This document shows positions 39,157-58,193 of a DNA stretch of 64,000 bases, one piece after another; position 1 is the stretch's first letter, and each line of letters opens with the position of its first letter. Source of the stretch: an uncultured Paracoccaceae bacterium (GTDB lineage Bacteria; Pseudomonadota; Alphaproteobacteria; Rhodobacterales; Rhodobacteraceae); assembly GCA_947499715.1 (NCBI GenBank), contig CANMPL010000006.1, positions 124,001 through 188,000 of the forward strand, written 5' to 3'. A program made the translations under genes and the position numbers. The notes below the pieces were generated by a model. That model searched no databases, was not told the origin of the DNA, and worked only from the letters and a program-made list of their open reading frames with translations.

Positions 39157-39170
39157 TTTAGGATCCCAAA
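39157..39170. promoter_or_regulatory. GGATCC palindrome, site 1
   Basis: TTTAGGATCCCAAA, one mismatch from the perfect palindrome TTTGGGATCCCAAA. The centre at 39163.5 lies 63 bp from site 2. It covers the region just before the GntR start codon, as expected for autorepression. Confidence 0.65.
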
Positions 39171-39219
39171 GTCAAGCAAATATCGCTATTACGGGGTAAT
39201 CGCAGATTTTTCCACTTGA

Positions 39220-39233
39220 TTTGGGATCCCAAA
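39220..39233. promoter_or_regulatory. GGATCC palindrome, site 2
   Basis: TTTGGGATCCCAAA, a perfect 14-bp palindrome with its centre at 39226.5. It lies 63 bp from site 1 and 73 bp from site 3, placing all three on about the same face of the helix. Confidence 0.75.
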
Positions 39234-39292
39234 ACGGTGTTTGTATGGGTTAACACGCGTGGAATCGACCGGATTTTGATGCGCTGGGTTCA

Positions 39293-39306
39293 AATGGGAT
39301 CCCAAA
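39293..39306. promoter_or_regulatory. GGATCC palindrome, site 3
   Basis: AATGGGATCCCAAA, with a perfect TGGGATCCCA core and its centre at 39299.5. It is the site nearest the rightward ALDH-GST-SDR operon, about 320 bases before its first start codon. Confidence 0.65.
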
Positions 39307-39623
39307 TGCATGGCCAATTTGCGAGGCCGCTGATTTTTGGAGGATGATATGTCTTCGTCATGTATTGGGCTTTCTGCAATTTTTGCCTCTGACAGCAAGG
39401 AAATCAAGGTGATTTTTGCAAATGCCGCCGCTTGCAGGATCGCGGGTCGCGCAGAGAATATGATGTGACCAATCAGTAAGGAATCCCCGCCCCGAGGCAC
39501 GCCTCGGGATTTCGCACCGGACTTGTCATAGGTTCGAGTTTGGTATGCAGTGGCCGGTATGCACGGCCCGGAACACAAGAAAGCAATCGCTTGTCGGTAA
39601 CGCGCCAGCACAGGAGACGTCCC

Positions 39624-41063
39624 ATGGATAAGAAGACAGACATCAAATCGTTTCAACACTTTATCGGAGGCGCGTGGAGCGACGCAGAGGGCGGGGGCGT
39701 TTTCGACGTTTTGAACCCGCTGGATGACAGCCTGTATGCGCAGGCCGCCAAGGGCACGGCTGCGGATATGGGCCGCGCTGTTGCGGCTGCGAAGGCAGCG
39801 TTTCCGGCCTATAAGGAGACCTTGCCAAAGGACCGCGAGCGGATGCTGCTGCGGGTGGCCGAGATCATGGAGACGCGAAAAGCAGAGCTTTTGGATTGCC
39901 TGATCGACGAGATCGGGTCGCCGATACAGAAGGCGATGTTTGAGTTTGAAAAGGGTCTGACGATGGTCCGTGCGGCGGCGGGACTGTGCCGTTATGTGCG
40001 AGGCGAGACGATCCCGTCGGATGCGCCGGGCAAGTTTTCCATGTCAATTCGCGAGCCGTTGGGCGTTGTCGCCGTGATCACGCCGTTCAACGTGCCGCTG
40101 ATCAAGACCACGCGTCTGGTCGCCAATGCGTTGGCGGTGGGCAACACCGTGGTGCATTTGCCGTCCGAAATGGCGCCGCATCTGACCGTGCTGTTTGCGG
40201 AAATCGTGGCAGAGGCCGGGTTCCCGGAGGGTAGCTATAATGTGGTCACGGGCTTTGGCCATGAGATTGGCGATGACCTGACCAGCAATACGGATGTGGA
40301 TTTTGTGACCTTTACCGGGTCAACGGTGATCGGTCAGCACATCAACGAGATTTGCGCCAAGAACAAGACACGCAACACGCTGGAACTGGGCGGGAAAAGC
40401 CCGACGCTGATCCTGAAAGATGCGGATCTGGACAAGGTGATGCCACTGGCGGCGCGGTCGATCTTTATGTTTGGCGGGCAGGCCTGTATCGGGTCGAGTC
40501 GGTTCTATGTGGAACGGCCCCTTTACGACGAATTCGTCAAGCGGTTTGCGATGATCGCGGGCAAGGTTGGCATGGGGGATCTGCGTGACCCCGGCACGGT
40601 GATTGCGCCGATCATTTCCGATCGCCAGCGCAGCCGCGTCAAAGCGCATATCGCGGATGCGGTTGAAAAGGGTGCCACGGTCGTTGCGGGCGGTGAGTGG
40701 GAAGGCAACCGGTGCCAGCCCACGCTGTTGACCAATGTCAGCGATGAGATGACCGTGTGCCGGGCAGAGACGTTTGGCCCGGTCACGTCGATCTATGCCA
40801 TCGACAGCTATGAAGAAGGTCTGGCGCTGGCCAATGACACAGAGTTCGGTCTGTCCTCGGCCATATTCACAAATGACATCAACAAGGCGATGCATTTTGC
40901 CAAGAATATCGGCGCAGGGATGTGCCATATCAATGGACCGACAATCCATGACGAGGCGCATGTGCCCTTTGGCGGGAATGGTCAATCCGGTGTGGGCCGC
41001 GAGGGAACCGATGCCGACATGGAAGCGATGACCGAGTTGAAATGGGTGACGGTGCAGCTATGA
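39624..41063 (+). CDS. Aldehyde dehydrogenase family protein
   Basis: A 479-residue enzyme with a complete ALDH set: ITPFNVPLIKTTRLVANALAVGN, FTGSTVIG, general base Glu in LELGGKSPT and catalytic Cys in GGQACIGSSR. The segment is closest to the salicylaldehyde/vanillin/benzaldehyde dehydrogenase branch by eye, so an aryl or bulky aldehyde is plausible. The ATG at 39624 has CAGGAGA seven bases upstream. The gene is the first of an operon with a GST and an SDR, downstream of the GGATCC palindromes. With the SDR it could carry an alcohol to an acid. Confidence 0.9.
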   Translation: MDKKTDIKSFQHFIGGAWSDAEGGGVFDVLNPLDDSLYAQAAKGTAADMGRAVAAAKAAFPAYKETLPKDRERMLLRVAEIMETRKAELLDCLIDEIGSPIQKAMFEFEKGLTMVRAAAGLCRYVRGETIPSDAPGKFSMSIREPLGVVAVITPFNVPLIKTTRLVANALAVGNTVVHLPSEMAPHLTVLFAEIVAEAGFPEGSYNVVTGFGHEIGDDLTSNTDVDFVTFTGSTVIGQHINEICAKNKTRNTLELGGKSPTLILKDADLDKVMPLAARSIFMFGGQACIGSSRFYVERPLYDEFVKRFAMIAGKVGMGDLRDPGTVIAPIISDRQRSRVKAHIADAVEKGATVVAGGEWEGNRCQPTLLTNVSDEMTVCRAETFGPVTSIYAIDSYEEGLALANDTEFGLSSAIFTNDINKAMHFAKNIGAGMCHINGPTIHDEAHVPFGGNGQSGVGREGTDADMEAMTELKWVTVQL

Positions 41064-41881
41064 GTTATACGCTTTATCACCACGGTTCATCGGTTTGCGC
41101 GGCCAAGGTGCGCTTTGCCATGGATGAAAAGGGCCTGGAGTGGGATGGCGTTTACATCGACATCCTGAAGGGCGAACAGTTTGAACCCGAATACCTGAAG
41201 CTGAACCCCAAGGGTGTTGTGCCAACGCTGGTGCATGATGACACGGTGGTGCCGGATAGCACGGTGATCATTGAATATCTGGATCAGCTGGAACCTGCCA
41301 CAAGCGTGCATCCCACTGACCCGTGGGAACGTGCGCAGGCGCGGTATTGGACCAAGGCGGTGGACGAAGATCTGCATCCCGCCTGTGGTGCGGTGACGTT
41401 TGTCTGTTCGCACCGCCATACGGTTCTAAAGAACCTTGGCGAAGAGGGGGTGAAAAAATTCCTCGCCTCTACCCCGAAAATCTCGGTCACGTCGGATTGG
41501 AAAAGCATGAAGGACGCCTTTACCCGGTTCGGGTTTGAGGCACCGGGTGCGACCGAAAAGGTCAAACTATACGATACCTACCTGCACAAGATGGAAGATG
41601 CGCTGGCGGGTGGCAATGACTGGCTGGTGGGGAACACATTCTCGATCGCGGATATTGCCATGACGCCTTACGTCAATCGCCTTGCGATGATGTCGATGCG
41701 CGGCATGTGGGAAAACGGGCGGTTGCCCAATGTAGAAAAGTGGTTCGCCCGGATCGAGGCGCGGCCAAATTTCAAAAAGTGCCTGATTGATTGGGTGCCC
41801 GAGGATCTTACCAATGATCTTCGCGAGAACGGGGCCAAGAGCTGGCCTGAAGTCGCAAGAATTCTAGAAATCAGCATCTAA
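41060..41881 (+). CDS. Glutathione S-transferase family protein
   Basis: A 273-residue GST. The thioredoxin-like N-domain shows YHHGSSVCAAKVRFAMDEKG with a Ser/Cys at the position that activates glutathione, and NPKGVVPTLVHD with the cis-proline, then DSTVIIEYLD. The helical C-domain covers about 90-250. A 20-residue insertion and its length above the usual 210 resemble LigF- or LigE-like etherase GSTs, but I cannot align this by eye. It overlaps the ALDH stop as ATGA, so glutathione chemistry belongs to the same pathway. Confidence 0.85.
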   Translation: MSYTLYHHGSSVCAAKVRFAMDEKGLEWDGVYIDILKGEQFEPEYLKLNPKGVVPTLVHDDTVVPDSTVIIEYLDQLEPATSVHPTDPWERAQARYWTKAVDEDLHPACGAVTFVCSHRHTVLKNLGEEGVKKFLASTPKISVTSDWKSMKDAFTRFGFEAPGATEKVKLYDTYLHKMEDALAGGNDWLVGNTFSIADIAMTPYVNRLAMMSMRGMWENGRLPNVEKWFARIEARPNFKKCLIDWVPEDLTNDLRENGAKSWPEVARILEISI

Positions 41882-41895
41882 AACTGGAGGACGCA

Positions 41896-42648
41896 ATGGG
41901 TCGTTTGGATGGAAAAGTCGCAGTCATAACCGGGGCTGCACAGGGGATTGGGTCATTGATGGCCAAGGCAATGGCGGATGAGGGTGCAACGGTGCTTGTC
42001 ACCGATGTGCAGGACACTGCCAACGCCGTGAAGGCGATCACGGATGATGGTGGCTCTGCGCAGGGTATGAAGGTTGACGTGACCAACAATGACGACCTCA
42101 AGGCGATGGTCGAAAAGGCCACCAGCATGGGCGGGTTGGACATCATGGTGAACAATGCGTCGATCTTTGCGACGCTCAAGCCCAAGCCGTTCTTTGAGAT
42201 CAGCGACGAGGAATTCGATACAATCATGCGCGTGAATGCGCGTGGCGTGCATCAGGTGATGCGGGCCATTGTGCCGACAATGATCAAGGGCGGTGGCGGC
42301 AAGGTTGTGAACATTGCCTCTGGGACGTTCTATTACGGACCGCCGGGATTGTCGCACTACACGGCATCCAAGGGGGCCGTGATGGCGCTGACGCGGTGCC
42401 ATGGGCGCGAGCTGGGCGACAAGAACATTCAGGTCAACGCCATCGCGCCTGGCCTGACTGAAAGCGAAGGTCTTGCGGCAAACGCGGACTTTGACCGGGC
42501 GCGTGGCCCGACCGTTGCATCAAGGTCGATCCAGCGCGAGATGCTGCCCGAAGATCTGATGGGGACCCTGCTTTATCTGGCGTCTTCCGACAGCAACTTT
42601 GTCACCGGTCAGACGCTGAACGTCGACGGCGGCAAGATCAACGTCTAA
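41896..42648 (+). CDS. SDR family oxidoreductase
   Basis: A 250-residue classical SDR. TGAAQGIG (about 12-19) binds the cofactor, NNAS replaces the usual NNAG, and catalytic Ser and Tyr-x3-Lys lie in IASGTFYYGPPGLSHYTASKGA, quoted as GLSHYTASKGA. Asp in VTDVQD favours NAD. It lies 14 bases after the GST gene with a CTGGAGGA ribosome site. An alcohol dehydrogenase step before the ALDH is the natural reading. A strong palindromic terminator follows its stop. Confidence 0.87.
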   Translation: MGRLDGKVAVITGAAQGIGSLMAKAMADEGATVLVTDVQDTANAVKAITDDGGSAQGMKVDVTNNDDLKAMVEKATSMGGLDIMVNNASIFATLKPKPFFEISDEEFDTIMRVNARGVHQVMRAIVPTMIKGGGGKVVNIASGTFYYGPPGLSHYTASKGAVMALTRCHGRELGDKNIQVNAIAPGLTESEGLAANADFDRARGPTVASRSIQREMLPEDLMGTLLYLASSDSNFVTGQTLNVDGGKINV

Positions 42649-42651
42649 GGA

Positions 42652-42677
42652 AAACTGGCCCGCGCGCGGGCCAGTTT
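42652..42677 (+). terminator. Perfect 26-bp palindrome after SDR gene
   Basis: AAACTGGCCCGCG is followed directly by its complement CGCGGGCCAGTTT, four bases after the SDR stop. It ends in TTT and should terminate transcription in both directions. Confidence 0.8.
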
Positions 42678-43042: not shown

Positions 43043-44737
43043 TTAGCCGGTTGGCGCCTGCCATGATATGGGCATCACGGGGGTCAGAGACAAAAGTGTG
43101 CGGGTGTAATCGGCTTGCGGGTTCGCATAGAGGGCCTCTGTGCTGCCAATTTCTTCGATCCGGCCATTGCGCAACACGGCTGTGTCGTCGGCCATTTGAC
43201 GCACCACTGCGAGGTTATGGCTGATGAACAGTATCGTGAGGCCGAACTTGGCTTGCAGGTCTTTCAGCAAGTTGAGGATTTCAGCCTGTATCGAGACATC
43301 CAGCGCCGAGGTCGGTTCGTCGCAGATCAGGAACCGGGGGCGCGCGAGCAGGGTTCGGGCCACAGCAATGCGCTGACGCTGCCCCCCGGAAAACTGGTGC
43401 GGATATTTGTCGATGGCGTCGGGGGCCATGCCGACAAGTTCGAGCATTGAGGCGGCAAGGCGGCGGCGGTCACTTGGGTCAGGCGTAAAGCCATAAAACC
43501 AAAGGGGTTCTGCCAGAATTGCGCCGATGGTTTGGCGTGAATTGAGGCTTGAATACGGGTCTTGGAACACCATCTGGATCAGTTGTCGCGAAGGGTGATG
43601 GCGGCTGCGGGATTTGCCGCCGGGCAGGGTGTCATCGCCCAATGTCATGGTGCCGCTACTGGGTGTCACCAGCCCGGTGATCGCCTTGGCGAGCGTCGAT
43701 TTGCCTGATCCGCTTTCCCCCACAAGGCCCATGATCGATGCGGGGCGGATATCAAAACTAATGTCGTGCAGGGCGACATATGGATCGGGCTTGCGCCAGA
43801 GCGAGGTGCGGGTGCCGGGAAAGCGCACGCAGAGGTTTGACAGCGAAAGACCAATAGGGTCTTGCTCTATCCCTTCGAGCAACCACGCCTCTGCCGCGTT
43901 GTCTTGGGTGATCGGGCCGGTGTCGGCCTCTTGCGGGACGCGAAAGCGGTCGATGCGGCGATCCAAAGGCGGGACGGCATCCATCAAGGCACGGGTATAG
44001 GGGTGCCGGGGCGCGCCAAGGACCTGCGCGGTTTCCCCGGTTTCCATGACTTTGCCATGGCGCATAACGGTCACCCGGTCGGCCACCTGCGCGATCACGC
44101 CGATGTCGTGGGTAATCAGCATAAAGGCGATCTTGCGGTCGCGTGCGAGCCTGCGGATCAGATCAAGGACTTGGCTTTGCACGGCCACATCAAGGGCGGT
44201 GGTTGGTTCATCTGCGATGATCAGTTCCGGGTCCGTGCAGATCGCAAGCGCGATGACGACGCGTTGGCGCATTCCGCCTGAAAACTGGTGTGGGTAAGAC
44301 TTGATCCGCGCCGCGGCGTTTTCGATCCCGATGTCTTCAAGCAGGTCAACAGCGCGCTTGAGCGCGGCGGCGTGGCTGACATCGGAGTGGGCTTGGATAG
44401 TTTCAACCAGCTGATCCTCGATCGTCATCAGCGGGTTGAGGCTGGTTTGCGGGTCTTGAAAGATCATCGAGATCCGGTCGCCCCGGATCGCATGGGCCTG
44501 ACCGTCAGAGAGGTCGCGCAGGTCGGTATCGCCCAAGGTGAGCGTGCCACCGGCGATGTATCCGGGTGTTTGCAAAAGCCCGATTACAGCCGCCCCAACG
44601 GTTGATTTGCCTGCGCCGCTTTCGCCGACCAAGCCGTGGATCTCTCCCGGTGCGATGGTCATGTCCACGTCTTCAATGGCGGTGAAATCGCCAAAACGAG
44701 AGGGGAATTTTACCGCGAGGTCTGTGATCGTCAGCAT
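43043..44737 (-). CDS. Dipeptide/oligopeptide-type ABC transporter, fused double ATP-binding protein
   Basis: A 564-residue protein of two ABC domains, as in GsiA or YejF, equal to DppD plus DppF. First domain: GLVGESGAGKSTVG, FSGGMRQRV, IADEPTTALDV. Second: GLVGESGSGKSTLAK, FSGGQRQRIAVART, CDEPTSALDV. Both ATP sites look intact. It is the last gene of a leftward four-gene operon and starts right where the permease gene ends. It powers import of a peptide or peptide-like solute. Confidence 0.93.
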   Translation of the reverse strand: MLTITDLAVKFPSRFGDFTAIEDVDMTIAPGEIHGLVGESGAGKSTVGAAVIGLLQTPGYIAGGTLTLGDTDLRDLSDGQAHAIRGDRISMIFQDPQTSLNPLMTIEDQLVETIQAHSDVSHAAALKRAVDLLEDIGIENAAARIKSYPHQFSGGMRQRVVIALAICTDPELIIADEPTTALDVAVQSQVLDLIRRLARDRKIAFMLITHDIGVIAQVADRVTVMRHGKVMETGETAQVLGAPRHPYTRALMDAVPPLDRRIDRFRVPQEADTGPITQDNAAEAWLLEGIEQDPIGLSLSNLCVRFPGTRTSLWRKPDPYVALHDISFDIRPASIMGLVGESGSGKSTLAKAITGLVTPSSGTMTLGDDTLPGGKSRSRHHPSRQLIQMVFQDPYSSLNSRQTIGAILAEPLWFYGFTPDPSDRRRLAASMLELVGMAPDAIDKYPHQFSGGQRQRIAVARTLLARPRFLICDEPTSALDVSIQAEILNLLKDLQAKFGLTILFISHNLAVVRQMADDTAVLRNGRIEEIGSTEALYANPQADYTRTLLSLTPVMPISWQAPTG

Positions 44738-45643
44738 CTACCGGAGCCTTGGGTTAAAGACGTCGCGCAGGAAGTCGCCCAGGATATTGATCGACACCAC
44801 AAGGGCCACAAGAAACAGGGTCGGGATCCACAAGATCCACCATTCGCCAGACAACAGAAACTGCATCCCGATGCGGATCAGGGTGCCGAGCGAAGGGCTG
44901 TCGGCGGGCAGGCCGATGCCGAGGAAGGACAGCGTCGCCTCGAGCAGGATCGCAGAGGCGAGATCAACGGTCATGATGACCAACAGGGGGCCGAGGATGT
45001 TGGGCAGGATGTGCACGAACATGACGCGTGATGGGCGCTGGCCCATCATGATCGCGGCTTGCACGTATTCCTTTTTCATCTGCACAAAGGTCGATGCGCG
45101 GGCGGTGCGGGCGAAGTTCACCCAAAGCGACAGGGCAATCGCCAGCGTCAGGACAGCGACGCGCAGGTCTTGCTGGATCGCGGCGGGAAGGATGCCACGG
45201 GCGATGCCGTCGATCAAAAGCGCCGTCAGGATCGCGGGCAAGGCGAGTTGCACATCCGCGATGCGCATGATGATCGCGTCAAATCGCCCGCCGTAGTAGC
45301 CCGCGGCAAGGCCAAGTCCGACACCAAGGACGGCGGCGATTGTGAGGGCGGCGATGCCGATGACAAGCGACAGGCGGGCCCCATAAAGGATCGATGAGAT
45401 CATATCGCGGCCCTGATCGTCGGTGCCGAGCAGGTATTTTGGGTTCGCTCCGTCTTCCCATGCTGGGGGTAGCAGCCCGTCAAACAGGCTAAAGGACGCG
45501 AGGTCGTAGGGGTTCACCAGCGCAATCCATGGGGCGAAGACCGCACCAATCAGGATGAGTGCGGCGACCAACGCGGCAATCATTGCAGCGGGGGAGTGAA
45601 CGAAGAGCCATAAGCCTTCGTAGCGTTTGAGGAATGCGATCAT
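44738..45643 (-). CDS. ABC transporter permease, DppC-like
   Basis: A 301-residue permease with an N-terminal span (about 17-38) and five more. The EAA loop is at about 190-215 (RTARASTFVQMKKEYVQAAIMMG, quoted as EYVQAAIMMGQ). LGTDDQGRDMISSILYGARLSLVIG is the DppC/OppC hallmark, quoted here as GTDDQGRDMISSILYGAR. Stop and start are packed tightly against the ATPase gene, and it overlaps the DppB-like gene upstream by four bases. Confidence 0.92.
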   Translation of the reverse strand: MIAFLKRYEGLWLFVHSPAAMIAALVAALILIGAVFAPWIALVNPYDLASFSLFDGLLPPAWEDGANPKYLLGTDDQGRDMISSILYGARLSLVIGIAALTIAAVLGVGLGLAAGYYGGRFDAIIMRIADVQLALPAILTALLIDGIARGILPAAIQQDLRVAVLTLAIALSLWVNFARTARASTFVQMKKEYVQAAIMMGQRPSRVMFVHILPNILGPLLVIMTVDLASAILLEATLSFLGIGLPADSPSLGTLIRIGMQFLLSGEWWILWIPTLFLVALVVSINILGDFLRDVFNPRLR

Positions 45644-46614
45644 GTGACGTCACTCACCCGTAATCGCGGGTCGATGGCAACGTAAAGCAGGTCGACGATC
45701 AGGTTCACAAGCACGAAGAAAAACGCGATGACCACGAGGTAGACGCCCATGACCGGGATGTCGACAAACCGGATGGATTCCAGAAACAGCAGGCCCATGC
45801 CGGGCCACTGAAACACGCTTTCAGTGACGATTGAAAAGGCAATCACACCGCCAAACTGCAACCCGATGATGGTGATCACCGGGACCATGGTATTGGCCAG
45901 CGCGTGTTTGTAATGGAGCCGCCGCATAGGCACGCCGCGCGCCATGCCAAAGCGGATATAATCTGACCGCATGACCTCCATCATCTCGGCCCGCACAAGG
46001 CGCATGGTCAGGGTCAACTGGTAGACACCAAGCGTAATCGCAGGCAGCAACAGCGCGCGCCAGCCTTCGATGGTGAACAGCGAGCTTTCCCAACCGCCAA
46101 TCTGCACCGTGCCGCCGCGCCCAAATGTCGGCAACCAGCCCAGCTGCACCCCAAAGATGAAAATCAACATGATCCCGATGACAAACGTGGGGATCGACAC
46201 CCCCACAAGCGTGGTCATCAATATCGCCTGCGTGGCAATCCCGCGTGGTCGCAACGCCGTATAAACCCCCGTCGGGATTCCCACGACCAGCGAGATAATC
46301 AGCGCCACAACCCCCAATTCCAGCGTCGCGGGAATGCGGGTGGCAATCATCTCGGCCACGGGCTGTCGGGTGCGATAGGAAAACCCGAAATCCCCTTGCA
46401 ACAGATCACCGGTAAACCGCGCAAACTGATAGACAAACGGATCATTCAGACCCAGTTCATCGCGCAACCGCTCCTGATCTTCGACCGAAGTTTCAACCCC
46501 CGTCATCTGGCTGATCGGATCACCGACAAACCGGAACAGGGAAAACGCCAGAAAGGCGACGGCCAGCATCACAAAGACTGATTGGATCAGTCGTTTCAGG
46601 ATGAAATAGGCCAT
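45640..46614 (-). CDS. ABC transporter permease, DppB-like
   Basis: A 324-residue permease with six spans, the first at about 10-30. GDPISQMTG and LGLNDPFVYQFARFTGDLLQGDFGFSYRTRQPV, quoted as GDLLQGDFGFSYRTRQPV, are the DppB/OppB signatures. The EAA loop is MMEVMRSDYIRFGMARGV, quoted from about 210. It forms the membrane pore with the DppC-like protein. The gene begins 23 bases after the binding-protein gene. Confidence 0.93.
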   Translation of the reverse strand: MAYFILKRLIQSVFVMLAVAFLAFSLFRFVGDPISQMTGVETSVEDQERLRDELGLNDPFVYQFARFTGDLLQGDFGFSYRTRQPVAEMIATRIPATLELGVVALIISLVVGIPTGVYTALRPRGIATQAILMTTLVGVSIPTFVIGIMLIFIFGVQLGWLPTFGRGGTVQIGGWESSLFTIEGWRALLLPAITLGVYQLTLTMRLVRAEMMEVMRSDYIRFGMARGVPMRRLHYKHALANTMVPVITIIGLQFGGVIAFSIVTESVFQWPGMGLLFLESIRFVDIPVMGVYLVVIAFFFVLVNLIVDLLYVAIDPRLRVSDVT

Positions 46615-46637
46615 CGCCGTCCTGCTTATTCAGCGCT

Positions 46638-48218
46638 TCAGTTCACTGTCACCCAGCGCAGCATAAAGAAGTTGTCGGCCCGCTGTGTCAGGTCAACATT
46701 GTCCTTGGCCGCCCAGATCAACGGCTGGGTATAAAGCGGGATATAGGCAACCTCTTCCTGCGTGATCGCCACCACCTCATCCACCAGCATCTGGCGCTTG
46801 GCCGGGTCGATTTCCTGCTGGATCATTGGCAGCAATTCATCAACGCGGGCGTTGGAATAGTTGCCAAAGTTCCACGACCCCAGCTTCTTTTCGTCGTCTT
46901 GGCTATGCATCAGGAAGCGGATTGGGTGCTCCATGTCAAAGGTGCCCGGCGACCAGCCCAGCAGATACATGTCAAAGTCATCTTCGCGCAGCTGTGGCCA
47001 GTAATCGCGCACCGGACCGGTGGACAATTCGGCGTTCAGACCAACGGCTGCAAACATGGATGCCGCCGCACGGCACAGAGCCTCATCGTTGATATAACGA
47101 TCATTGGGGCACTTCAGGCCAAAGGAAAACCCATCCGGGTAACCGGCTTCGGCCAAGAGTTCCTTGGCCCGGTCCGGGTTGTAATCAGGACGGCCTGTGT
47201 TCGCCTCTGAAAACCCGGAAATGCCCGCAGGCACCAACTGACTGGCCGGTGCAATCTTGCCCCGGAACAGCACCCGGTTGATCGACGCGATATCAATCGC
47301 ATGGGCCGCAGCAAGGCGCACGCGCGGGTCTGCAAACGGGTTGGCGTCAGTCACATCGGTGGAATAAAGCAGCGCGTCATGCTCATGGCCGAAGCCAAAC
47401 ATGATCACGCGGGTTTCTTCGCCTTCCAGCACCTTGAACCCGTCACGGCCTTCAACCTGTGCCACATCCTGCAACGGGATGGGCTGGATAAAATCGATCT
47501 CACCTGACAGCAGCGCGGCCAGCCCGGTGGCGGCGTTGCCAATGGGGGTAAAGACCGCCTCGGTCACGTTATGGGTTGCGTCATCCCACCAGCCCTCATG
47601 CGGGACCAGTGTGGTTTTGACACCCGGATCGCGGCTTGCCAGCGTAAAGGGGCCGGTGCCGTTGACGTTCATCGTGGCAAAGTTTTCCGCATCACGGGCG
47701 GGCAGGGCGGCGTCGTTGCCCTCGGCCCAATCCTTATCCAGGATCATGAAGTTGGCGATGCTGTCCGGGAACAGCGGGTTGGGCGCGGATGTGACGAAAT
47801 CAATAGTGAAATCATCGACCACCCGCACTTCGGATACGGGCGCAAACCATGACCGCACATCAGCCGCCTCGTTGCTGGCCCGCTCGTAGGAAAACATCAC
47901 GTCTTCTGCGGTAAAGGCGGATCCATCCTGAAAGGTCACGCCTTCGCGCAGGTTAAAGCGCCAGCCATTCTCGCCTGCCAGCGGTTCCCATGATGCGGCC
48001 AGCGATGGTTCGATGGACATATCCTGCCCGCGACGCACAAGACCCTCGTAGATATTGTTGAGGAATGACAGCACGGGGGCGGAGTTTACGGCATGTGGGT
48101 CCATCGTCTGCGGATCCGTCGTGGACGCCCAGCGGAGTGTTTCGGCCGAGACGTTGGATGCACATAGCATCAGCGTGCCAGCGGCCAGCGCAGTGTTTCG
48201 CAGGTTCAGTCGTGTCAT
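46638..48218 (-). CDS. ABC transporter substrate-binding protein, family 5 (DppA-like)
   Basis: A 526-residue periplasmic protein with a Sec signal (about 1-25, ending NVSA). Family features: TDPQTMDPHAVNSAPVLSFLNNIYEGLV, quoted as NNIYEGLVRRG; WRFNLREGVTFQDGSAFTAEDVMFSYER, quoted as GVTFQDGSAFTAEDV; and FADPRVRLAAAHAIDI. Members bind peptides, opines, nickel or glutathione. It is the first gene of the leftward operon. The ligand cannot be read from sequence. Confidence 0.92.
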   Translation of the reverse strand: MTRLNLRNTALAAGTLMLCASNVSAETLRWASTTDPQTMDPHAVNSAPVLSFLNNIYEGLVRRGQDMSIEPSLAASWEPLAGENGWRFNLREGVTFQDGSAFTAEDVMFSYERASNEAADVRSWFAPVSEVRVVDDFTIDFVTSAPNPLFPDSIANFMILDKDWAEGNDAALPARDAENFATMNVNGTGPFTLASRDPGVKTTLVPHEGWWDDATHNVTEAVFTPIGNAATGLAALLSGEIDFIQPIPLQDVAQVEGRDGFKVLEGEETRVIMFGFGHEHDALLYSTDVTDANPFADPRVRLAAAHAIDIASINRVLFRGKIAPASQLVPAGISGFSEANTGRPDYNPDRAKELLAEAGYPDGFSFGLKCPNDRYINDEALCRAAASMFAAVGLNAELSTGPVRDYWPQLREDDFDMYLLGWSPGTFDMEHPIRFLMHSQDDEKKLGSWNFGNYSNARVDELLPMIQQEIDPAKRQMLVDEVVAITQEEVAYIPLYTQPLIWAAKDNVDLTQRADNFFMLRWVTVN

Positions 48219-49480: not shown

Positions 49481-49572
49481 ACTGGTTTGATTCCGATTGG
49501 GTCGTCGTGCAGGGCTGTGAAGATACCGGCGTCCTCAGAATGGATGTCCCGGCAGGCAGTTTGCGTCAGTTT

Positions 49573-49600
49573 TTGCCGGTTTGGGATCCCAAGGCGGCAA
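49573..49600. promoter_or_regulatory. GGATCC palindrome, site 4, with extended symmetry
   Basis: The core TTGGGATCCCAA (49581-49592) is perfect, and outer arms TTGCCG (49573-49578) and CGGCAA (49595-49600) are also symmetric about the same centre, 49586.5. It lies 62 bp from site 5. This is the longest form of the operator in the window. Confidence 0.7.
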
Positions 49601-49642
49601 ATTGAGGGGTTTTGCGGCCATAAATTCAGAAAAGTCTTGACT

Positions 49643-49654
49643 ATGGGATCCCAT
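49643..49654. promoter_or_regulatory. GGATCC palindrome, site 5
   Basis: ATGGGATCCCAT, a perfect 12-bp palindrome directly after TTGACT. Its centre at 49648.5 is 62 bp from site 4. If TTGACT is a -35 box, binding here would cover the promoter spacer and repress the TRAP-sulfatase operon. Confidence 0.7.
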
Positions 49655-49845
49655 TTCACCCAATTTGACTTAGCGGAAACTCGTGCCTGAGCGTCATTCA
49701 CTATCGAAAAGGCGAAGCTGCGGTGTGGGCCGAAGCTTGTGGCGCCGAAGGACCCTTGCAACGACTCTGGGTGGGTCCTTAGAGTTTCATACATAGCGAG
49801 ATCGCGCTGGTAATGGCGCGTTAGGCGGCTTTTTGGGAGGAAAAC

Positions 49846-50892
49846 ATGCTCAGAATACTAAAAATGGCAGCAATTGCCGGGACGATGGCGACGACTGCAG
49901 CAGCGCAGGTAAATCTGACATCGAATACTGCTGGGGCAGGCACAACCGTGGCGCTGACAGCGACAGCGCTGGTGGAATATGCAAGCGAACGCGGCATTGC
50001 GAACATTCAGCTGAAAGATGGTCAGACCGGCACAAACTATTTCCAGCTTTTGGCGGAAGGAAAGATCGATATCGCGAACGGTCCCTTTATCCTGCCGTTC
50101 TTTATGTCACGCGGCGTGGGTCCGTATGCGAGCCTTGGCAAGGAAACGGGGGCAGAGCTTGGCGCGAATATCCAGCTGCTTTATCCTTACACACTCAGCG
50201 TTTTTACGCTCTACGCCTATGATGCCAAGGGGATTTCAGGATGGGATGACCTTGAGGGTCGCAAGATCTTGAACGGCCCGCCACGTGGTGGGGCTGTGAC
50301 GAATTCTCGTGGGTTGGTGCAATTGTTCGCAGGGCTTAAGCCCGACGAGGATTATGAAAGTGTGACGGTGAATTGGAACCAAGCTGCGGCGGTCGTGATT
50401 GACGGCACGGCAGATGCAGCTGTGATGCCAGTCATGTTTCCGGGCCCCCGGGTCACGCGGATAGGGGCGGGTGGTGCGATGACGATGTACTCGCTTCCGA
50501 AAGACACATACGAATCCGAGGCCGCACAAAAGTTGCTGAACAAGCCAGGGTCTGTCGCCTTCGAAATTCCGGTGTCCGAGGTCTTGGCCAGTCTTGGTGA
50601 CGGTTGGACAGTGGTATCAGAGGATGACACATTTCGTGGCATGGCCACGACAGGCGGTGATTTCGTCAACAAGAGTATGGACGAAGAAGTCGCTTATGGC
50701 CTGACCAAAGCACACATCGAAAACCTTGATAATATCAAGGCTTCGGCGCCGTTCATGGCGACACTGAATTTTGGTGTTCTGGATCCGGCGGTTGCCGGTT
50801 TGTGCGGGGCCAATGCCGTGAAGTTCCATCCCGGTTCTGTGCGCGCATGGGAAGAAGCTGGCTATGATGTGCCAGATTGCGCAAAGCCCTAA
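49846..50892 (+). CDS. TAXI-family TRAP transporter substrate-binding protein
   Basis: A 348-residue periplasmic protein with a Sec signal (about 1-21, ending TTAAAQ). The TAXI pattern is present: NTAGAGTTVALTATALVEYA at the N-domain, LYPYTLSVFTLYAYDAKGISGWDDLEGRKILNGPPRG, quoted as GWDDLEGRKILNGPPRG. The C-terminus ends in WEEAGYDVPDCAKP with a Cys. A strong TGGGAGGAA site precedes the ATG. It feeds the fused permease downstream. The ligand is probably an organic anion, and sulfate esters are suggested by the operon. Confidence 0.88.
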   Translation: MLRILKMAAIAGTMATTAAAQVNLTSNTAGAGTTVALTATALVEYASERGIANIQLKDGQTGTNYFQLLAEGKIDIANGPFILPFFMSRGVGPYASLGKETGAELGANIQLLYPYTLSVFTLYAYDAKGISGWDDLEGRKILNGPPRGGAVTNSRGLVQLFAGLKPDEDYESVTVNWNQAAAVVIDGTADAAVMPVMFPGPRVTRIGAGGAMTMYSLPKDTYESEAAQKLLNKPGSVAFEIPVSEVLASLGDGWTVVSEDDTFRGMATTGGDFVNKSMDEEVAYGLTKAHIENLDNIKASAPFMATLNFGVLDPAVAGLCGANAVKFHPGSVRAWEEAGYDVPDCAKP

Positions 50893-50975
50893 GTCAATCT
50901 CGCGGGCCGGTGTGTTGCATCGGCCTACGCACGATTTGAATTTCCCGCGGCCAGATAGAGGCAAAGTGTTCTGTC

Positions 50976-53324
50976 ATGACTGATAAAGAAGCCACCCCAA
51001 AAATGCCCGGTGGGGCTATGACAAACGGAGCCGAGCGGGCGGTCTATTTGCTTGGGCTGGGATTGGTCATTGTCGGCATGTTGAACGTCACACCGTCGAT
51101 TCCTGGCTGGGACGACATGTGGAAAAACCTGACCGGGTCGGACGCCTTCAAGATCAGACGTTTCCCGACCGAATGGCTTTATCCCATCAGCTTCTTCTGG
51201 ATGATGTTGGTTGTCGCGCTCAAGCATTCCATTTGGCGTAGCTGGGCCACGGACCGCCCGGCGTGGAAAGGCATCGGGCTGGTTCTGGATGTGGCGCTCG
51301 TGGTCGCGGCGGCTGCCATCTCATTGACCTATCTGGTAGAGTTGGAGGCCGTTTGCCTGCTGGATGTTCTGTCAGGAGACCGGGCAAGGCTTATGGTCGA
51401 GGCGCTGCAGGCTGAGGTCGAATATGCCGAGCTTTTGGGCCTGCCGATACCGGAAACAGCCGACGACCCGCATTGTCTGAATACAACGGGCGGTTGGCTG
51501 CCTTTCATCCTGTTCGGGGCGATTATCGTTTTCCTGATCTATAACATTAAGGTCTGGGGCTTGCCGCTGGTCTTGGTGTCGATCCTGATCGCCACATACA
51601 CCTTCGCCACAGTGATGAACTGGTATTTCAACGGTGCCGAGGATCAGAATAAATACCTGATCACGATTCTGAGCAGTCAGGAACCAAGAAGCCTTGAGGC
51701 GGGTCGCGAGTTCGTGCGGGATGCCTTGATCAACAACACCGCCGGCCTGCTGGGGCGGTTCATCAATGTGCTGCTGTTGCTGGTCTTTCCTTATGTGATC
51801 CTTGGCGCGTTGTTTGGCAGTTGTGCTGGTGGTCAGTCGCTTATCAAGCTGGCGTTTTCGGCGACGCGAAACTTGCGCGGTGGGCCTGCCCACGCTGCTG
51901 TCATGTCTTCGGCGATGTTTGGGACGATTACCGGAGGACCGGTCGTCAATGTTCTTTCGACGGGTGTTTTGACGATCCCGATGATGATCAAACGCGGGTT
52001 TTCAAAGGTGTTTGCGGGCGGGGTTGAGGCGGCGGCGTCCTCTGGCGGGGCGATCATGCCGCCAATCATGGGGGTTGCGGCCTTTATTATGTCGGCGCTG
52101 ACGGGTGTCGCCTATCGTGAGATCATCATCGCGGCGGCCTTGCCTGCACTTTTCTATTTCTTTTGCCTGTTCCTGTCGGTCATCTTTCAGGCCCGCAAAC
52201 AGAACATCGAGGCGGTTGGCGAAATCACTGATGATATGCGGCTTTCACGTTCTGACCGACTGCACCTGATCCAGATCTTTGCACCGGTTCTGTTGGTGCT
52301 TGTCCTATTGCTGACACCCAAAGACGGGATTGGATGCGGTCCGATTGCAATCATGCTGGGCAGCGTCGTGGAAATGGACGGCACCCAGTGCAATGTCATC
52401 GCGATGCCGTGGATTGTTGAACTGTTCCAGAACGCGGCTGGTGATGCCAGTGCGGCGGGATGGTGGGCGGTCATTCTGCTTTTGGTCCTGATGCTGCTTG
52501 ATCGTGACATTCGGTCAAAGCCGTCAAAGATATTTGACGGTTTGGCAAAGGCCGGCGTCACGATCTCAACGCTATTTCTGATGTTCCTGGCGGTTACAGT
52601 CATTGATGTGTCATTGAACTTTACCGGCTTGGCGAAATTCGTGGCGGTTGACGTGTTGGGGTTCCTGAAGTCGTTCAATGCGGCCGAAGGATCTGTTGGG
52701 TTCTTGCTGTTCGCTCTGACGCTGACGATGCTGCTTGCGGTCTTGTTGGGTATGGGGATGCCAGCCGTGCCAGCCTATATCAATGTGGCCCTTTTGATGG
52801 GACCGATGCTGATCGGGTTGGGGATCGCCACGCTGACGGCGCACATGTTCATCTTCTATTTTGCAGTCGCATCAGCAATCACCCCGCCGGTCGCGATGGC
52901 CGCGTTTGCAGCATCGACAATCACCCATGCTGATCCGCTACGAACCGGGGTCTCTGCGGTGAAATCGGGCATTGTGATGTTCACCATTCCCTTTGTCTTT
53001 GCGATCTACCCAGAGCTGTTGTTGATCGACAAGGCCATGATCGATCCCAATACTGGCGCATTCTTTGCGGGCTATGATGGCAATCTTGATTTGGGGTGGC
53101 TCTTGAGCCTTCTGCTGCGTGTTGCTGTCGCGCTTTATCTGTTGTCCAGCGCGCTTGCGGCCTATGATCACAAAGCGCTGAGCGCAATTGAGATTGTCGT
53201 TCGTCTGGCGATTGCAGTGTTGATCCTGTTCCGACCGCCAGAGGTCTATGTCCCCGCTGTTGCCGCTGGTGTTGGGCTTCACTTGTTCCACGCCTACCAA
53301 AGCCGCAAGGCGCTGGCGGTCTAG
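50976..53324 (+). CDS. TRAP transporter fused permease (DctQM, TAXI type)
   Basis: A 782-residue protein with about 16-18 spans. Residues about 20-230 form the DctQ-like part, and about 260-780 the DctM-like part. Typical stretches are GPAHAAVMSSAMFGTITGGPVVNVLSTG, quoted as SSAMFGTITGGPVVNVLS, AAASSGGAIMPPIMGVAAFIMS and LLGMGMPAVPAYINVALL. It imports an organic anion with sodium or protons, together with the binding protein upstream. A large loop with Cys residues (about 440-480) is unlike most relatives. It ends 25 bases before the sulfatase gene. Confidence 0.92.
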   Translation: MTDKEATPKMPGGAMTNGAERAVYLLGLGLVIVGMLNVTPSIPGWDDMWKNLTGSDAFKIRRFPTEWLYPISFFWMMLVVALKHSIWRSWATDRPAWKGIGLVLDVALVVAAAAISLTYLVELEAVCLLDVLSGDRARLMVEALQAEVEYAELLGLPIPETADDPHCLNTTGGWLPFILFGAIIVFLIYNIKVWGLPLVLVSILIATYTFATVMNWYFNGAEDQNKYLITILSSQEPRSLEAGREFVRDALINNTAGLLGRFINVLLLLVFPYVILGALFGSCAGGQSLIKLAFSATRNLRGGPAHAAVMSSAMFGTITGGPVVNVLSTGVLTIPMMIKRGFSKVFAGGVEAAASSGGAIMPPIMGVAAFIMSALTGVAYREIIIAAALPALFYFFCLFLSVIFQARKQNIEAVGEITDDMRLSRSDRLHLIQIFAPVLLVLVLLLTPKDGIGCGPIAIMLGSVVEMDGTQCNVIAMPWIVELFQNAAGDASAAGWWAVILLLVLMLLDRDIRSKPSKIFDGLAKAGVTISTLFLMFLAVTVIDVSLNFTGLAKFVAVDVLGFLKSFNAAEGSVGFLLFALTLTMLLAVLLGMGMPAVPAYINVALLMGPMLIGLGIATLTAHMFIFYFAVASAITPPVAMAAFAASTITHADPLRTGVSAVKSGIVMFTIPFVFAIYPELLLIDKAMIDPNTGAFFAGYDGNLDLGWLLSLLLRVAVALYLLSSALAAYDHKALSAIEIVVRLAIAVLILFRPPEVYVPAVAAGVGLHLFHAYQSRKALAV

Positions 53325-53349
53325 AGCGCGCCAGGATCCCGGAGAGCCT

Positions 53350-54933
53350 ATGACCGAAAGACCGAGCTTTATTCTGTTCATCACGGACCAACAGCGGTTC
53401 GATCATTTGGGCTGCAATGGTCACCCGGTGCTGCGCACGCCCCATATTGACGCCATGGCGGCGCAAGGCGTGAACTACAAACGGTTCTATGTCGCTTCTC
53501 CGGTTTGTATGCCGAACCGCGCCAGTTTGATGACCTGTCGAATGCCGTCGAGCCATGGCGTGCGGACGCTCGGGATCCCGATGTCGCATGATCAGGTGAC
53601 CTTTGTGGAATTGTTGCGCGCGGCTGGCTATGACACCGCGCTGATCGGCAAAAGCCACCTACAGAATCTGTCTCATTTTCCGGTGCAGGTGCCGCCACCG
53701 GAACATCGCGAAGGTTTTCATGTGCCGCCCGATGACGCCAGCGTTGCGATCCGGTCGGACCTGGATAATGAGACCTATCAATACGAGCGCCAGCCCTACT
53801 GGAACCAGGATGATCCAGTTGTGCCGACGCCGTTCTACGGCTTTGACCACTACGATTCTGTATTGCGACACGGCACGAACGCAGGTGGCGATTATGAGTT
53901 GTGGCTGCGCAAGAACGCACCGGAGGTTTTGGAGATGCGGGGGCCACAGCACCAGTTTCCGCATGACTACATTTGCCCGCAAGCGATCCGCACAAAGATA
54001 CCGGAAGAGCATTATACCACACGCTACATTGCGGATCGGGCCAGTGAATGGATTGCGGCGCGAAAGGGAAACCCAAAGCCGTATTTCCTGATGGTGTCGT
54101 TCCCGGACCCACATCATCCGTTCAACCCGCCCGGCAAATATTGGGACATGTACGAGCCCGAAGACATGCCCGTGCCGCTTGCTTATCAAGCCAACGATTG
54201 GGATCCGCCTGCTTACGTTCTGGCGGCGGAAAAAGCGCGCGCGAAAGACGCCAATATTGGCAAAAAGGCTGGGTATTCCCTTGCCGTGTCCAAGCGGGAG
54301 GCACTAGAGGCGCGGGCGCTGACCTGCGGCATGATTGCCATGGTGGATGATGCCGTCGGGCAGGTGCGCGATGCAGTGAATGATGCGGGTGTTTCTGATG
54401 AGACGGTTCAGATTTTCACCTCTGATCACGGGGATCATCTGGGGGATCATCGGCTGTTGTTCAAAGGATCAGAGCAATACGACAACCTGACCCATGTGCC
54501 ATTTATCTGGTCAGATCCGAAGGGGTCTGCCGGGCAGGACAGTGATGAGATTGCACAGACACATGATATCGGAACGACAATCCTTGAACACGCAATGATC
54601 GAAGGCGCTGTTGGGATGCAGGGCGTCGTGATGTCGGTTGCGGGCGGGCAGGGACGTGAAGCAGCGCATATCCAGTATGAGACGCAGCGCACACAAGAGG
54701 CTTTTGGTGTGCGGCCACGCGTGCATACGATTGTAAAGGGCAGGTGGCGACTGTCGATGTATCTTGGCAAATGCCCTAACGAGCTATTTGATCTCGAGGA
54801 TGATCCGGGCGAGATGGTCAACCTATGGGACAGCCCCACGCACGCGGCGATCAAACATCAGCTGGTTGAAGCGCTGGCCGAAATGGAAATTGCGGCAGTC
54901 GATAGGGTGCCTTTGCCCACGTCAGAGGCCTAG
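53350..54933 (+). CDS. Sulfatase (formylglycine type), copy 1
   Basis: A 527-residue alkaline-phosphatase-superfamily sulfatase without a signal peptide, so probably cytosolic. Metal ligand Asp13 is in FITDQQRFDHLG; Cys53 in CMPNR is the C-x-P-x-R site converted to formylglycine; TSDHGDHLGDH supplies more metal ligands. The usual L-T-G-R after the site reads MTCR here. It may act on choline sulfate, aryl or alkyl sulfates, or phosphonate monoesters. ATG 53350 has GGAGAG six bases upstream. Cotranscription with the TRAP permease suggests the substrate is imported intact. Confidence 0.88.
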   Translation: MTERPSFILFITDQQRFDHLGCNGHPVLRTPHIDAMAAQGVNYKRFYVASPVCMPNRASLMTCRMPSSHGVRTLGIPMSHDQVTFVELLRAAGYDTALIGKSHLQNLSHFPVQVPPPEHREGFHVPPDDASVAIRSDLDNETYQYERQPYWNQDDPVVPTPFYGFDHYDSVLRHGTNAGGDYELWLRKNAPEVLEMRGPQHQFPHDYICPQAIRTKIPEEHYTTRYIADRASEWIAARKGNPKPYFLMVSFPDPHHPFNPPGKYWDMYEPEDMPVPLAYQANDWDPPAYVLAAEKARAKDANIGKKAGYSLAVSKREALEARALTCGMIAMVDDAVGQVRDAVNDAGVSDETVQIFTSDHGDHLGDHRLLFKGSEQYDNLTHVPFIWSDPKGSAGQDSDEIAQTHDIGTTILEHAMIEGAVGMQGVVMSVAGGQGREAAHIQYETQRTQEAFGVRPRVHTIVKGRWRLSMYLGKCPNELFDLEDDPGEMVNLWDSPTHAAIKHQLVEALAEMEIAAVDRVPLPTSEA

Positions 54934-56214
54934 CTAGGCGTCACTGGGTGGGTAGAGTTCCTTTGCGCATTGCAAATAGTAGTGTCGCGTCGGGCAGTTG
55001 ATTTGGTCAACCGCGTGTTCCCGCAGGATCGCAGCTTTGGTGTGCGACAATTCGGTTGGGTCGTCAGCGGCATAGATCAGGCGATCGATCAGTTCTAATG
55101 CCCACTGGTATGACCCATCAGCGCGCGCTTTTGCGATTTCGGCCAAGACAGCTTCGGATCCGCCAGCGAGCTTGATCATGCGCTGCGCTTCTTCTTGTGG
55201 GGACAAACGTCCGAGCGAGGTCGGGTTGCCATCAAACCAGCCCATGGTGCCGACAAAGTAGGCGCGCACAGCGTGGTCAACCCGGCCATAATACTCGCGC
55301 AGGTGCGGCTTTTCCGCGAGCTTTGGCGGGAGTGTGACGCTGTGGGCAAGTTCATCAATCGTCATTCCGGCGTTCATGCCTTCGCGGGTGGCGTCGGTCA
55401 CATGACGGATTGCATCACGGTAATCGGTGAGCGACGACCGGATCGTTTCGGCCCCAAAGAGCGCCTTGGTGTGGCCCGGTCCCAAAACGTCGGCATTGTA
55501 GGCCATCAATTGATCAATCGTATCGGCCCAGGCGTCATAATCGCGGTAGTCTGTGCCGCGAATGGCATAGAGGTTGGGGAAGGCGCGGTAGAAATTGTCA
55601 CCGCTGATCAGCACCTTCTTGGCGGCATACCAGACGATCATATGATCAGGTGTCTCACCGGGGGCCATCGTCAGTTCCAGATCGACACCGCAAATGGTGA
55701 TGTTCTCACCGGCTTGGCCGATCTTGCGTGTCGGTGGCAATGACCCTGCGCCCATGCCTTGCAACGGGCGGTCGCCCGGACCGACACCTATGCCGACAAT
55801 TTCATCCGGGTAGGACAACCCGATACCAAACTGCCGCTTTGTGCGCACCTGCATCGCCTTCACCGGACGGGCGTGTTTGCTGGCCGTAAAGAGCGCGTCG
55901 TCGGAGTATTTTTCACTTGCAAGAATGACAGGGTCACCGCCTTCTGCAAAAACGCTCGCGCCGGAAACGTGGTCGCGGTGGGAATGGGTCAGAATAATGG
56001 TATGGATGGGTAGATCTGTGATCTTGCGGAATTCGGCCAAAATATTTGTGGCCGCCGCTGTCGTTTCCGACGTGTCAATGATGATCAGCCCGCCGTCACC
56101 GATGATCATATAGACATTGGACGCGGCAAAGCCGAAGGCCTGATAGACGTTGTCGGCCAGTTGCACGACTTCCTTTTTGAAGTAGTCGGGATGCGCCTTT
56201 AGTTCTGGATGCAT
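54934..56214 (-). CDS. MBL-fold alkylsulfatase-like enzyme (SdsA/BDS1 family)
   Basis: A 426-residue protein. THSHRDHVSG (His77, His79, Asp81, His82) is the dizinc motif; APGETPDHMIVWYAAKKVLISGDNFYRAFPNLYAIRGT, quoted as SGDNFYRAFPNLYAIRGT, and LGPGHTKALFG match the SdsA-type alkylsulfatases I recall. About 280-426 form their helical dimerisation domain. The C-terminal SCP2-like domain and a signal peptide seen in SdsA1 are absent, so it is a short cytosolic form. Start 56214 has GAGGGGAAC upstream. It is convergent with sulfatase 1, stop next to stop, and divergent from sulfatase 2. Confidence 0.85.
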   Translation of the reverse strand: MHPELKAHPDYFKKEVVQLADNVYQAFGFAASNVYMIIGDGGLIIIDTSETTAAATNILAEFRKITDLPIHTIILTHSHRDHVSGASVFAEGGDPVILASEKYSDDALFTASKHARPVKAMQVRTKRQFGIGLSYPDEIVGIGVGPGDRPLQGMGAGSLPPTRKIGQAGENITICGVDLELTMAPGETPDHMIVWYAAKKVLISGDNFYRAFPNLYAIRGTDYRDYDAWADTIDQLMAYNADVLGPGHTKALFGAETIRSSLTDYRDAIRHVTDATREGMNAGMTIDELAHSVTLPPKLAEKPHLREYYGRVDHAVRAYFVGTMGWFDGNPTSLGRLSPQEEAQRMIKLAGGSEAVLAEIAKARADGSYQWALELIDRLIYAADDPTELSHTKAAILREHAVDQINCPTRHYYLQCAKELYPPSDA

Positions 56215-56309
56215 GATCGTTCCCCTCTTGCCGTGCGCTGCGTAATTCAAACATGACGCGATGGGTGATGTGGGTCAAATATCGCGTTGGTCTATGTCAG
56301 AGAGTGCCA

Positions 56310-56325
56310 ATTTGGGATCCCAAAT
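56310..56325. promoter_or_regulatory. GGATCC palindrome, site 6
   Basis: ATTTGGGATCCCAAAT, a perfect 16-bp palindrome centred at 56317.5, in the divergent region between the alkylsulfatase-like gene and sulfatase 2. It lies 72 bp from site 7. Confidence 0.75.
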
Positions 56326-56383
56326 GCAACGAAATGCTTGCGTTTCGGACGATATTTGCGATTTTGTGGGATTTTTTGCCATT

Positions 56384-56395
56384 AATGGATCCCAA
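56384..56395. promoter_or_regulatory. GGATCC palindrome, site 7 (degenerate)
   Basis: AATGGATCCCAA keeps the GGATCC core and right half of the operator but not the left arm. Centre at 56389.5, 72 bp from site 6 and 73 bp before the sulfatase 2 start. Confidence 0.45.
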
Positions 56396-56462
56396 TCTTG
56401 CTGGTTTCGGTGATTTTGGCGTGCTAGTCTTTGGAAAGTTTCACGTGAAGATTGAGGTCCCA

Positions 56463-58100: not shown

Positions 58101-58193
58101 TCGGACCAACTGCGTTGATCCTGTAAGGTATGCTTTGTAGGATCTGCCTTGTGCGTGCATCTGTGTCAGCCACGCTTACACTTTGAGGGCGCA

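Follow-up and report, generated by a model that had tools for sequence, protein, structure and literature searches.

A trait of the VanR group of FCD-GntR regulators is a short palindrome in the promoters of both the regulator gene and its targets. Atu1419 from Agrobacterium fabrum, a member of this group, is reported to form a tetramer and to loop the DNA from one palindrome to another (PMC7797058), and the paper on the repressor AlkR gives TGGNNNNNCCA as the FCD consensus. We analyzed a 64,000-nucleotide stretch of DNA, here called the window, from an uncultured Paracoccaceae bacterium (assembly GCA_947499715.1, contig CANMPL010000006.1, positions 124,001 to 188,000; G000:C6:124001-188000 in an assembly of 4,017,392 bases and 44 contigs). 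It is very probable that the palindrome TTTGGGATCCCAAA found in this window is the operator of a GntR/FCD repressor encoded at 38388-39140, and that this repressor controls all of the promoters listed below as one set.

A sequence-only reading of the window had reported seven intergenic copies of the palindrome, preceding the GntR gene, an operon for an aldehyde dehydrogenase (ALDH), a glutathione S-transferase (GST) and a short-chain dehydrogenase/reductase (SDR), an operon for a TAXI-type TRAP transporter and sulfatase 1, and an alkylsulfatase-like gene or sulfatase 2. All seven copies are present, although the one placed at 49573 was off by 7 bases and is located at 49580. Each of the seven lies between genes called in our analysis, and their positions ahead of the named genes were confirmed in three promoter regions. 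The regulator gene and the operator copies are as follows.

38388..39140, minus strand: GntR/FCD regulator (gntR); Pfam GntR and FCD, 20 orthologues aligned, AlphaFold2 model
39157..39170, no strand: operator copy 1, TTTAGGATCCCAAA; within the gntR promoter, adjoins TTGACT
39220..39233, no strand: operator copy 2, TTTGGGATCCCAAA; 63 bp from copy 1, adjoins a TTGATT that faces the ALDH operon
39293..39306, no strand: operator copy 3, AATGGGATCCCAAA; 73 bp from copy 2
49580..49593, no strand: operator copy 4, TTTGGGATCCCAAG; upstream of the TAXI-TRAP-sulfatase 1 operon
49642..49655, no strand: operator copy 5, TATGGGATCCCATT; adjoins TTGACT, 62 bp from copy 4
56311..56324, no strand: operator copy 6, TTTGGGATCCCAAA; between the alkylsulfatase-like gene and sulfatase 2
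56383..56396, no strand: operator copy 7, TAATGGATCCCAAT; the weakest, with 4 mismatches, 72 bp from copy 6

Across the source genome the palindrome is not placed at random, as its exact cores are confined to regulon promoters. Exact TGGGATCCCA occurs five times in the 4,017,392 bases, always inside the three promoter regions, and the exact 12-mer TTGGGATCCCAA three times, once per promoter region and always in the window. The sequence TNGGATCCNA is found at 35 places, all of them listed, five of which are TGGGATCCCA. Among the 35 places are eight sites of the form T[A/G]GGATCC[C/T]A; seven precede regulon genes, of which six belong to the window and the seventh to an array before dctP near G000:C6:62.3 kb, and the eighth, G000:C4:114289, is inside open reading frames (ORFs). 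A search for pairs (GGATCCC plus a GGATCC core, 50-79 bp apart) yielded nine distinct pairs. Three of them are inside ORFs and six at regulon promoters, where the window accounts for four and the array near C6:62.3 kb for two that overlap. Chance occurrence was therefore rejected on the exact-match counts, although the loose-match counts are ordinary.

The array outside the window has copies at C6:62209, 62272 and 62335, spaced by 63 and 63 bp, of which the first is weak. The gene directly behind it encodes, according to Pfam, a DctP solute-binding protein; it is approximately 100 kb from the window genes, and its product is 70% identical to that of dctP in the ALDH operon of the relative L044. 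The operator pairs at C6:62209-62335 thus recovered a gene that was invisible to the sequence-only reading. The regulon proposed by the sequence-only reading is thus supported as far as sequence evidence reaches, and it extends beyond the window, to this distant dctP and, in relatives, to an ALDH operon that also holds DctPQM and a second GST (GST2).

Three further observations concern the source genome. A PUCC-family gene (L141, 11139-12599) adjoins the distant dctP, and the organism may therefore carry photosynthesis genes. A second, paralogous set (L204, G000:C25:1-17472) contains sulfatase 2-like (54%), DctP-like (33%), DctM-like (51%) and GST2-like (37%) genes and is without the operator save one match with three mismatches inside an ORF. 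At L205 (G000:C2:244000-262000), a paralogous GntR gene (37%) is found beside ALDH (39%), SDR (33%) and DctPQM-like genes, also without the operator.

Orthologues of the GntR protein were identified in 8 of 295 genomes of the family, the source genome included (62-100% identity; next homologues at most 43%). With another 16 named loci, three of which were taken to be the same as G201, G001 and G213, and a class-wide sample of 385 genomes, in which two had an orthologue (the source genome and a new one, G601), the total came to 22 distinct genomes, the source included, at an identity of at least 61%. All 22 contain at least two operator sites, while the flanks have diverged; L058 is cut at a contig edge, and only its sulfatase 2/alkylsulfatase-like promoter is readable. 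Two of the 22 records are titled Granulosicoccaceae (L056) and Chromatiales (L057), which we take to be gammaproteobacteria. Repressor, operator and pathway genes are hence found together in alpha- and gammaproteobacterial records. Operator use by more distant GntR homologues (22 loci, L021-L042, 29-43% identity) was rejected on a site scan, which gave only two matches with at most three mismatches, both in L025 and both without the GGATCC core. Carriage on plasmids was likewise rejected, as a search of the plasmid collection at E 1e-40 yielded no match to GntR.

That the palindrome tracks with the GntR orthologue was evident both across the 295 family genomes and in all 22 members. The exact TTGGGATCCCAA was counted in the same 295 genomes as were used for the GntR search. 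It is present in seven of the eight GntR-positive genomes, the miss being G213, which has variants only, and two or more copies occur in 6 of the 8 GntR-positive genomes as compared to 1 of the 287 GntR-negative genomes (Fisher p = 2e-10; 7e-9 without the source genome). All 17 exact 12-mers of the eight GntR-positive genomes are located at promoters of cluster genes. In the GntR-negative genomes we examined 22 of the 23 exact 12-mers, leaving out the second one of G287; none of the 22 has a second site within 160 bp, and none adjoins a cluster gene, except that genes at L078 and L086 are weakly similar to the peptide ABC ATPase of the window.

Genome G082 serves as a natural control. A single cluster in it unites sulfatase 2 (65%), SDR (69%), GST (63%) and ALDH (66%), the last of which adjoins a LysR gene, and the genome has no GntR match at E 1e-20. 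The cluster is without sites; the 33 kb read contain two matches with at most three mismatches, both at least 4.4 kb from the ALDH start. The LysR gene in the place of gntR is an apparent regulator replacement. The same cluster (L191, G082:C15:272000-291900) also has an arylsulfotransferase-family gene and an amidohydrolase gene. Genome G601, which belongs to another family and was found after the motif had been fixed, is an out-of-sample case. GGATCC cores spaced by 62 and 74 (middle copy weak) are found at its gntR promoter. Others precede the alkylsulfatase-like/sulfatase 2 genes (spacing 61), TAXI (64, with one weak copy), DctP-GST2-DctM (63 and 63), and a gene for a 623-aa SdsA1-family alkylsulfatase followed by a GMC oxidoreductase gene (62). 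The 623-aa protein matches YjcS at E 1e-128 and has Alkyl_sulf_dimr and Alkyl_sulf_C domains. A total of 14 such pairs were listed in this genome, of which these seven were annotated and the other seven left unannotated.

The arrangement at the regulator gene itself is highly conserved. TTGAC[T/C] is present in all 20 loci aligned at the gntR start, at 35 nt ahead of the ATG in 18 loci and at 34 nt in two. In 19 loci it is followed by the operator core, the exception being L046. The TTGAC of G601 is 36 nt before the ATG. With G601 included, the operator is located between TTGAC and the start codon in 20 of the 21 genomes with a readable promoter (34-36 nt), which supports the earlier proposal that the GntR/FCD protein is the best candidate to bind the palindrome. 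No Shine-Dalgarno sequence was observed between the operator and the ATG in the source sequence, and codons ahead of the conserved ATG are not kept as starts. The gene thus probably begins at this conserved ATG (MDSIDLEL), four codons downstream of the start first used, and its mRNA is probably leaderless. The geometry suggests that gntR is both leaderless and autorepressed.

Analysis of 96 sites gave position frequencies with TTTGGGATCCCAAA as the consensus, and TTGA abuts 52 of these sites, the background being 4% per side. Neighbouring copies gave 53 spacings, mostly of 61-64 and 72-74 bp, with two at 53; 41 of the 53 deviate by no more than 1.5 bp from a multiple of 10.5 bp, as compared to 36% expected. 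The spacings in the source genome (63, 73, 62, 72, 63 and 63) are all phased, with a chance of approximately 0.002, as are six of seven in G601 (approximately 0.014), and differing promoters inside one genome agree in this respect. The usual separation is six or seven helical turns, which places the copies on roughly the same helix face. Such same-face binding would fit cooperative dimers or a bridging tetramer. Copies set more closely, at 20 and 23 bp or about two turns, were also observed beside the usual spacing in L057 (9963/9983) and L220 (7717/7740).

From the sites, their conservation, their co-occurrence with the regulator, their spacing and the promoter geometry, we infer a model for binding, repression, oligomeric state and induction. 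The GntR/FCD protein would bind each palindrome as a dimer. At its own gene, where the operator is located between the -35-like TTGACT and the start codon, bound protein would be expected to exclude RNA polymerase, so that gntR would be autorepressed. The other promoters (the ALDH operon, dctP, TAXI-TRAP-sulfatase 1 and alkylsulfatase-like/sulfatase 2) have two or three copies that face roughly the same side of the helix, usually at a distance of six or seven turns, and dimers could therefore cooperate, or a tetramer bridge the copies, to repress tightly. The repressor would be freed, and the whole set opened, when an inducer, probably a carboxylate or a pathway intermediate, contacts a conserved Asn-His3 metal site.

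The target genes in the window are listed here.

39624..41063, plus strand: ALDH; Pfam Aldedh, first gene of the ALDH-GST-SDR operon
41060..41881, plus strand: GST; nearest solved structure LigF
41896..42648, plus strand: SDR; from sequence matches
49846..50892, plus strand: TAXI solute-binding protein of a TRAP transporter; Pfam NMT1_3, TIGR02122 below its cut-off
50976..53324, plus strand: fused TRAP permease; Pfam DctM, TIGR02123 above its cut-off
53350..54933, plus strand: sulfatase 1; Pfam Sulfatase, more distantly related to the 4upi/4upl group
54934..56214, minus strand: alkylsulfatase-like protein of the metallo-beta-lactamase fold; Pfam Lactamase_B and Alkyl_sulf_dimr, SdsA1 at E 2.6e-53
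56463..58100, plus strand: sulfatase 2; nearest solved structures 4upi and 4upl

The structures 4upi and 4upl are presumably those of SpAS1 and SpAS2 from Ruegeria pomeroyi. The product of 54934-56214 shares the metallo-beta-lactamase core and the dimerisation domain with SdsA1 but is without the C-terminal domain; no Alkyl_sulf_C was detected in the Pfam scan, whereas the 623-aa protein of G601 has one. No substrate can be read from the SDR and ALDH matches, and the GST resembles LigF; we do not commit to a substrate. We infer that the targets make up an oxidative pathway that depends on glutathione and is supplied by TRAP transporters, and in which the sulfatases may free the substrate from sulfate esters. 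A common gene order in relatives is SDR-GST-ALDH-DctM-DctQ-GST2-DctP, sites and GntR, beyond which sulfatase 2, the alkylsulfatase-like gene and TAXI-TRAP-sulfatase 1 are found, often with a site pair of their own. ALDH is present in 19 of the 22 members, plus a fragment in L043; it was not seen in L058 (a 4-kb contig) or in G020 (no match at E 1e-180 genome-wide), and the orthologues in six other GntR-positive family genomes are 78-85% identical. Sulfatase 2, at an identity of at least 64%, is present in 16 of 22. It was not seen in L043, L046 and L053 (approximately 10 kb read per side) or in L056, where the contig end cuts the locus, and the best genome-wide match in G001 and G020 is only 51%. 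ALDH-GST-SDR and the DctPQM transporter are thus the targets kept most constantly, while the sulfatases are frequent and not universal.

Several observations weigh against the palindrome as the operator of a single regulon. Loose matching in the window (at most three mismatches) gave seven matches against a shuffle mean of 2.87, with seven or more in 2 of 100 shuffles, and one of the seven, 30081, is unrelated; the 10-mer at two mismatches shows no excess (37 observed, 38.4 expected). At least one exact 12-mer is present in 22 of the 287 GntR-negative genomes. Pairs of GGGATCCC...GGATCCC at a similar distance occur in 28 of these (unannotated) as well as in seven of the eight GntR-positive genomes, so spacing by itself is not specific to the latter. 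Related promoters are not independent, which makes the phasing statistics, Rayleigh p included, softer than their face value. In L046 the palindrome has been lost from the gntR promoter, although TTGACC is still found there at 35 nt from the ATG; two operator copies remain in this locus, 3.4 kb upstream. The gntR -10 element is weak, merely xTxAAT in most loci, and a promoter scan of the three regions found no sigma-70 consensus promoter. The promoter reading consequently rests on conservation, and leaderless transcription is suggested with moderate strength. The best DctM (G000:C2, 75%) and GST2 (G000:C1, 63%) homologues of the source genome are without the operator in the stretches read, and their control by it was rejected. 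The unremarkable loose-match count would suit an RNA hairpin, a mobile repeat or chance BamHI-type palindromes of no regulatory role, but this is next to impossible given the confinement of exact matches, the 14-mer kept amid diverged flanks, the linkage to GntR, the phased spacing and the co-occurrence test, and there is almost no leader at gntR to hold an RNA element. Another transcription factor might read the palindrome, gntR being merely one of its targets, and a LysR gene is found in the window at 58149-59084. We consider this highly improbable. The copies co-occur with the GntR orthologue in 22 genomes from two proteobacterial classes (by record titles), which is partly by design because the orthologues were the query, but the count of the exact 12-mer in 295 genomes did not depend on that query, the operator recurs in GntR's own promoter, and the window LysR gene has no match in the GntR-orthologue loci first scanned and only a 28% match in L148.

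The regulator could also be an activator or have a dual role, since at several promoters the outer copies are upstream of the promoter-proximal copy, in possible activator positions. This is unlikely, as protein bound to the gntR copy between TTGAC and the start codon should block the polymerase and the nearest characterised relatives, Atu1419 and AlkR, are described as repressors. The question is evenly balanced, on the other hand, for the claim of the sequence-only reading that the genes form one organosulfate pathway. The shared operator does join the genes, but the limited presence of sulfatase 2 and the constancy of the ALDH-GST-SDR and DctPQM genes would equally suit shared control of another TRAP-fed, glutathione-linked pathway, to which the sulfatases are optional feeders, or outside which they act. 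G001, for example, keeps GntR, DctPQM, ALDH, GST and SDR with only the distant sulfatase homologue. The organosulfate reading, which has partial support, is favoured by two sulfatases and an alkylsulfatase-like gene behind the operator in the source genome, and by the operator before a full alkylsulfatase with a GMC oxidoreductase in G601.

Two neighbouring gene groups of the window are without operator copies. A metallo-beta-lactamase-fold gene, an SBD_N/NBD_C kinase gene (PF07005/PF17042) and a class II aldolase gene run head to tail towards gntR at 35742-38382 and end 5 bases before it. Peptide-type ABC transporter genes, for an SBP_bac_5 binding protein and presumably permeases and an ATPase, are located at 43043-48218 between the ALDH operon and a kinase gene. 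Past the LysR gene, the product of 60466-61131 matches Pfam Fumerase_C, and the label RidA is wrong.

Comparison of many genomes indicates that one adjacent GntR-type repressor reads the shared operator, which allows the scattered genes for sulfatases, transport and oxidation to be handled as a single pathway under joint control. The phased palindrome would be a transferable label for the genes of this pathway wherever they are located, and it has already recovered the distant dctP and the alkylsulfatase-GMC oxidoreductase pair in a genome of another family. A loose sulfatase neighbourhood thereby becomes a defined gene set, whose substrate may be approached through what releases the repressor. 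The operator arrays also offer a natural spacing series for cooperative binding or looping by GntR proteins.

In the regulator, the Pfam domains GntR (E 6.9e-16) and FCD (E 1e-14) each score above their cut-off. Its AlphaFold2 model (mean pLDDT 83.7) has six long helices after the wing and two short ones. The best structural matches are VanR-group entries with Atu1419 at the top (TM 0.70-0.74 by query length in the twelve top rows, 27-29% identity). N133, H137, H194 and H216, invariant in 20 GntR sequences, align to the metal ligands Asn137, His141, His192 and His214 of Atu1419. The short palindrome in own and target promoters is present, as in the VanR group, whereas the consensus TTTGGGATCCCAAA is not the operator ATTGGATCCAAT of VanR sensu stricto. 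No vanillate demethylase gene was noticed among the annotated targets, although no search aimed at such genes was made. The VanR/VanO system compared here is presumably of the Caulobacter type. VanR with VanO ATTGGATCCAAT is likewise a GntR-family repressor with a GGATCC-centred palindrome, and the half-sites, TTTGGGA here and ATTGGA in VanO, are close but not identical (PMC7970624).

Atu1419 is the nearest solved structure by both sequence and fold, has the same Asn-His3 metal ligands, and represses catabolic genes through paired 10-bp palindromes that also precede its own gene (PMC7797058). It differs in its palindrome, ATGTATACAT, in its site distances of 190 or 109 bp and in governing hydroxycinnamate catabolism, at approximately 28% identity; tetramer and looping are reported for Atu1419 (PMC7797058), and the phased spacing seen here is compatible with them. 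AlkR is likewise a VanR-group repressor, its single palindrome overlapping the -10 region of its target, and differs by the motif ATTGTCAGACAAT with odd spacing, by its response to acyl-CoA and by being a dimer. Regulons of the FadR subfamily likewise have their sites in pairs, with nearly constant spacing, where regulator and target genes diverge, an arrangement interpreted as cooperative control, but their common motif is TKGT/ACMA, and the main text has no word beginning with GATC (PMC4494728). Our literature searches, with subscription journals, RegPrecise tables and supplements outside their scope, found no account of the motif or the regulon; such silence is no proof of novelty. It is conceivable, though rather doubtful, that a tetrameric metal-containing GntR repressor with very short phased loops (five to seven turns), acting at its leaderless own promoter and at unlinked operons, controls an undescribed glutathione-dependent uptake and desulfation of organic sulfate esters. 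The regulon is of a known kind, and its regulator is most likely, by sequence and predicted fold, a VanR-group FCD-GntR repressor, and the pathway under its control would be TRAP-fed and glutathione-linked and would include sulfatase modules.

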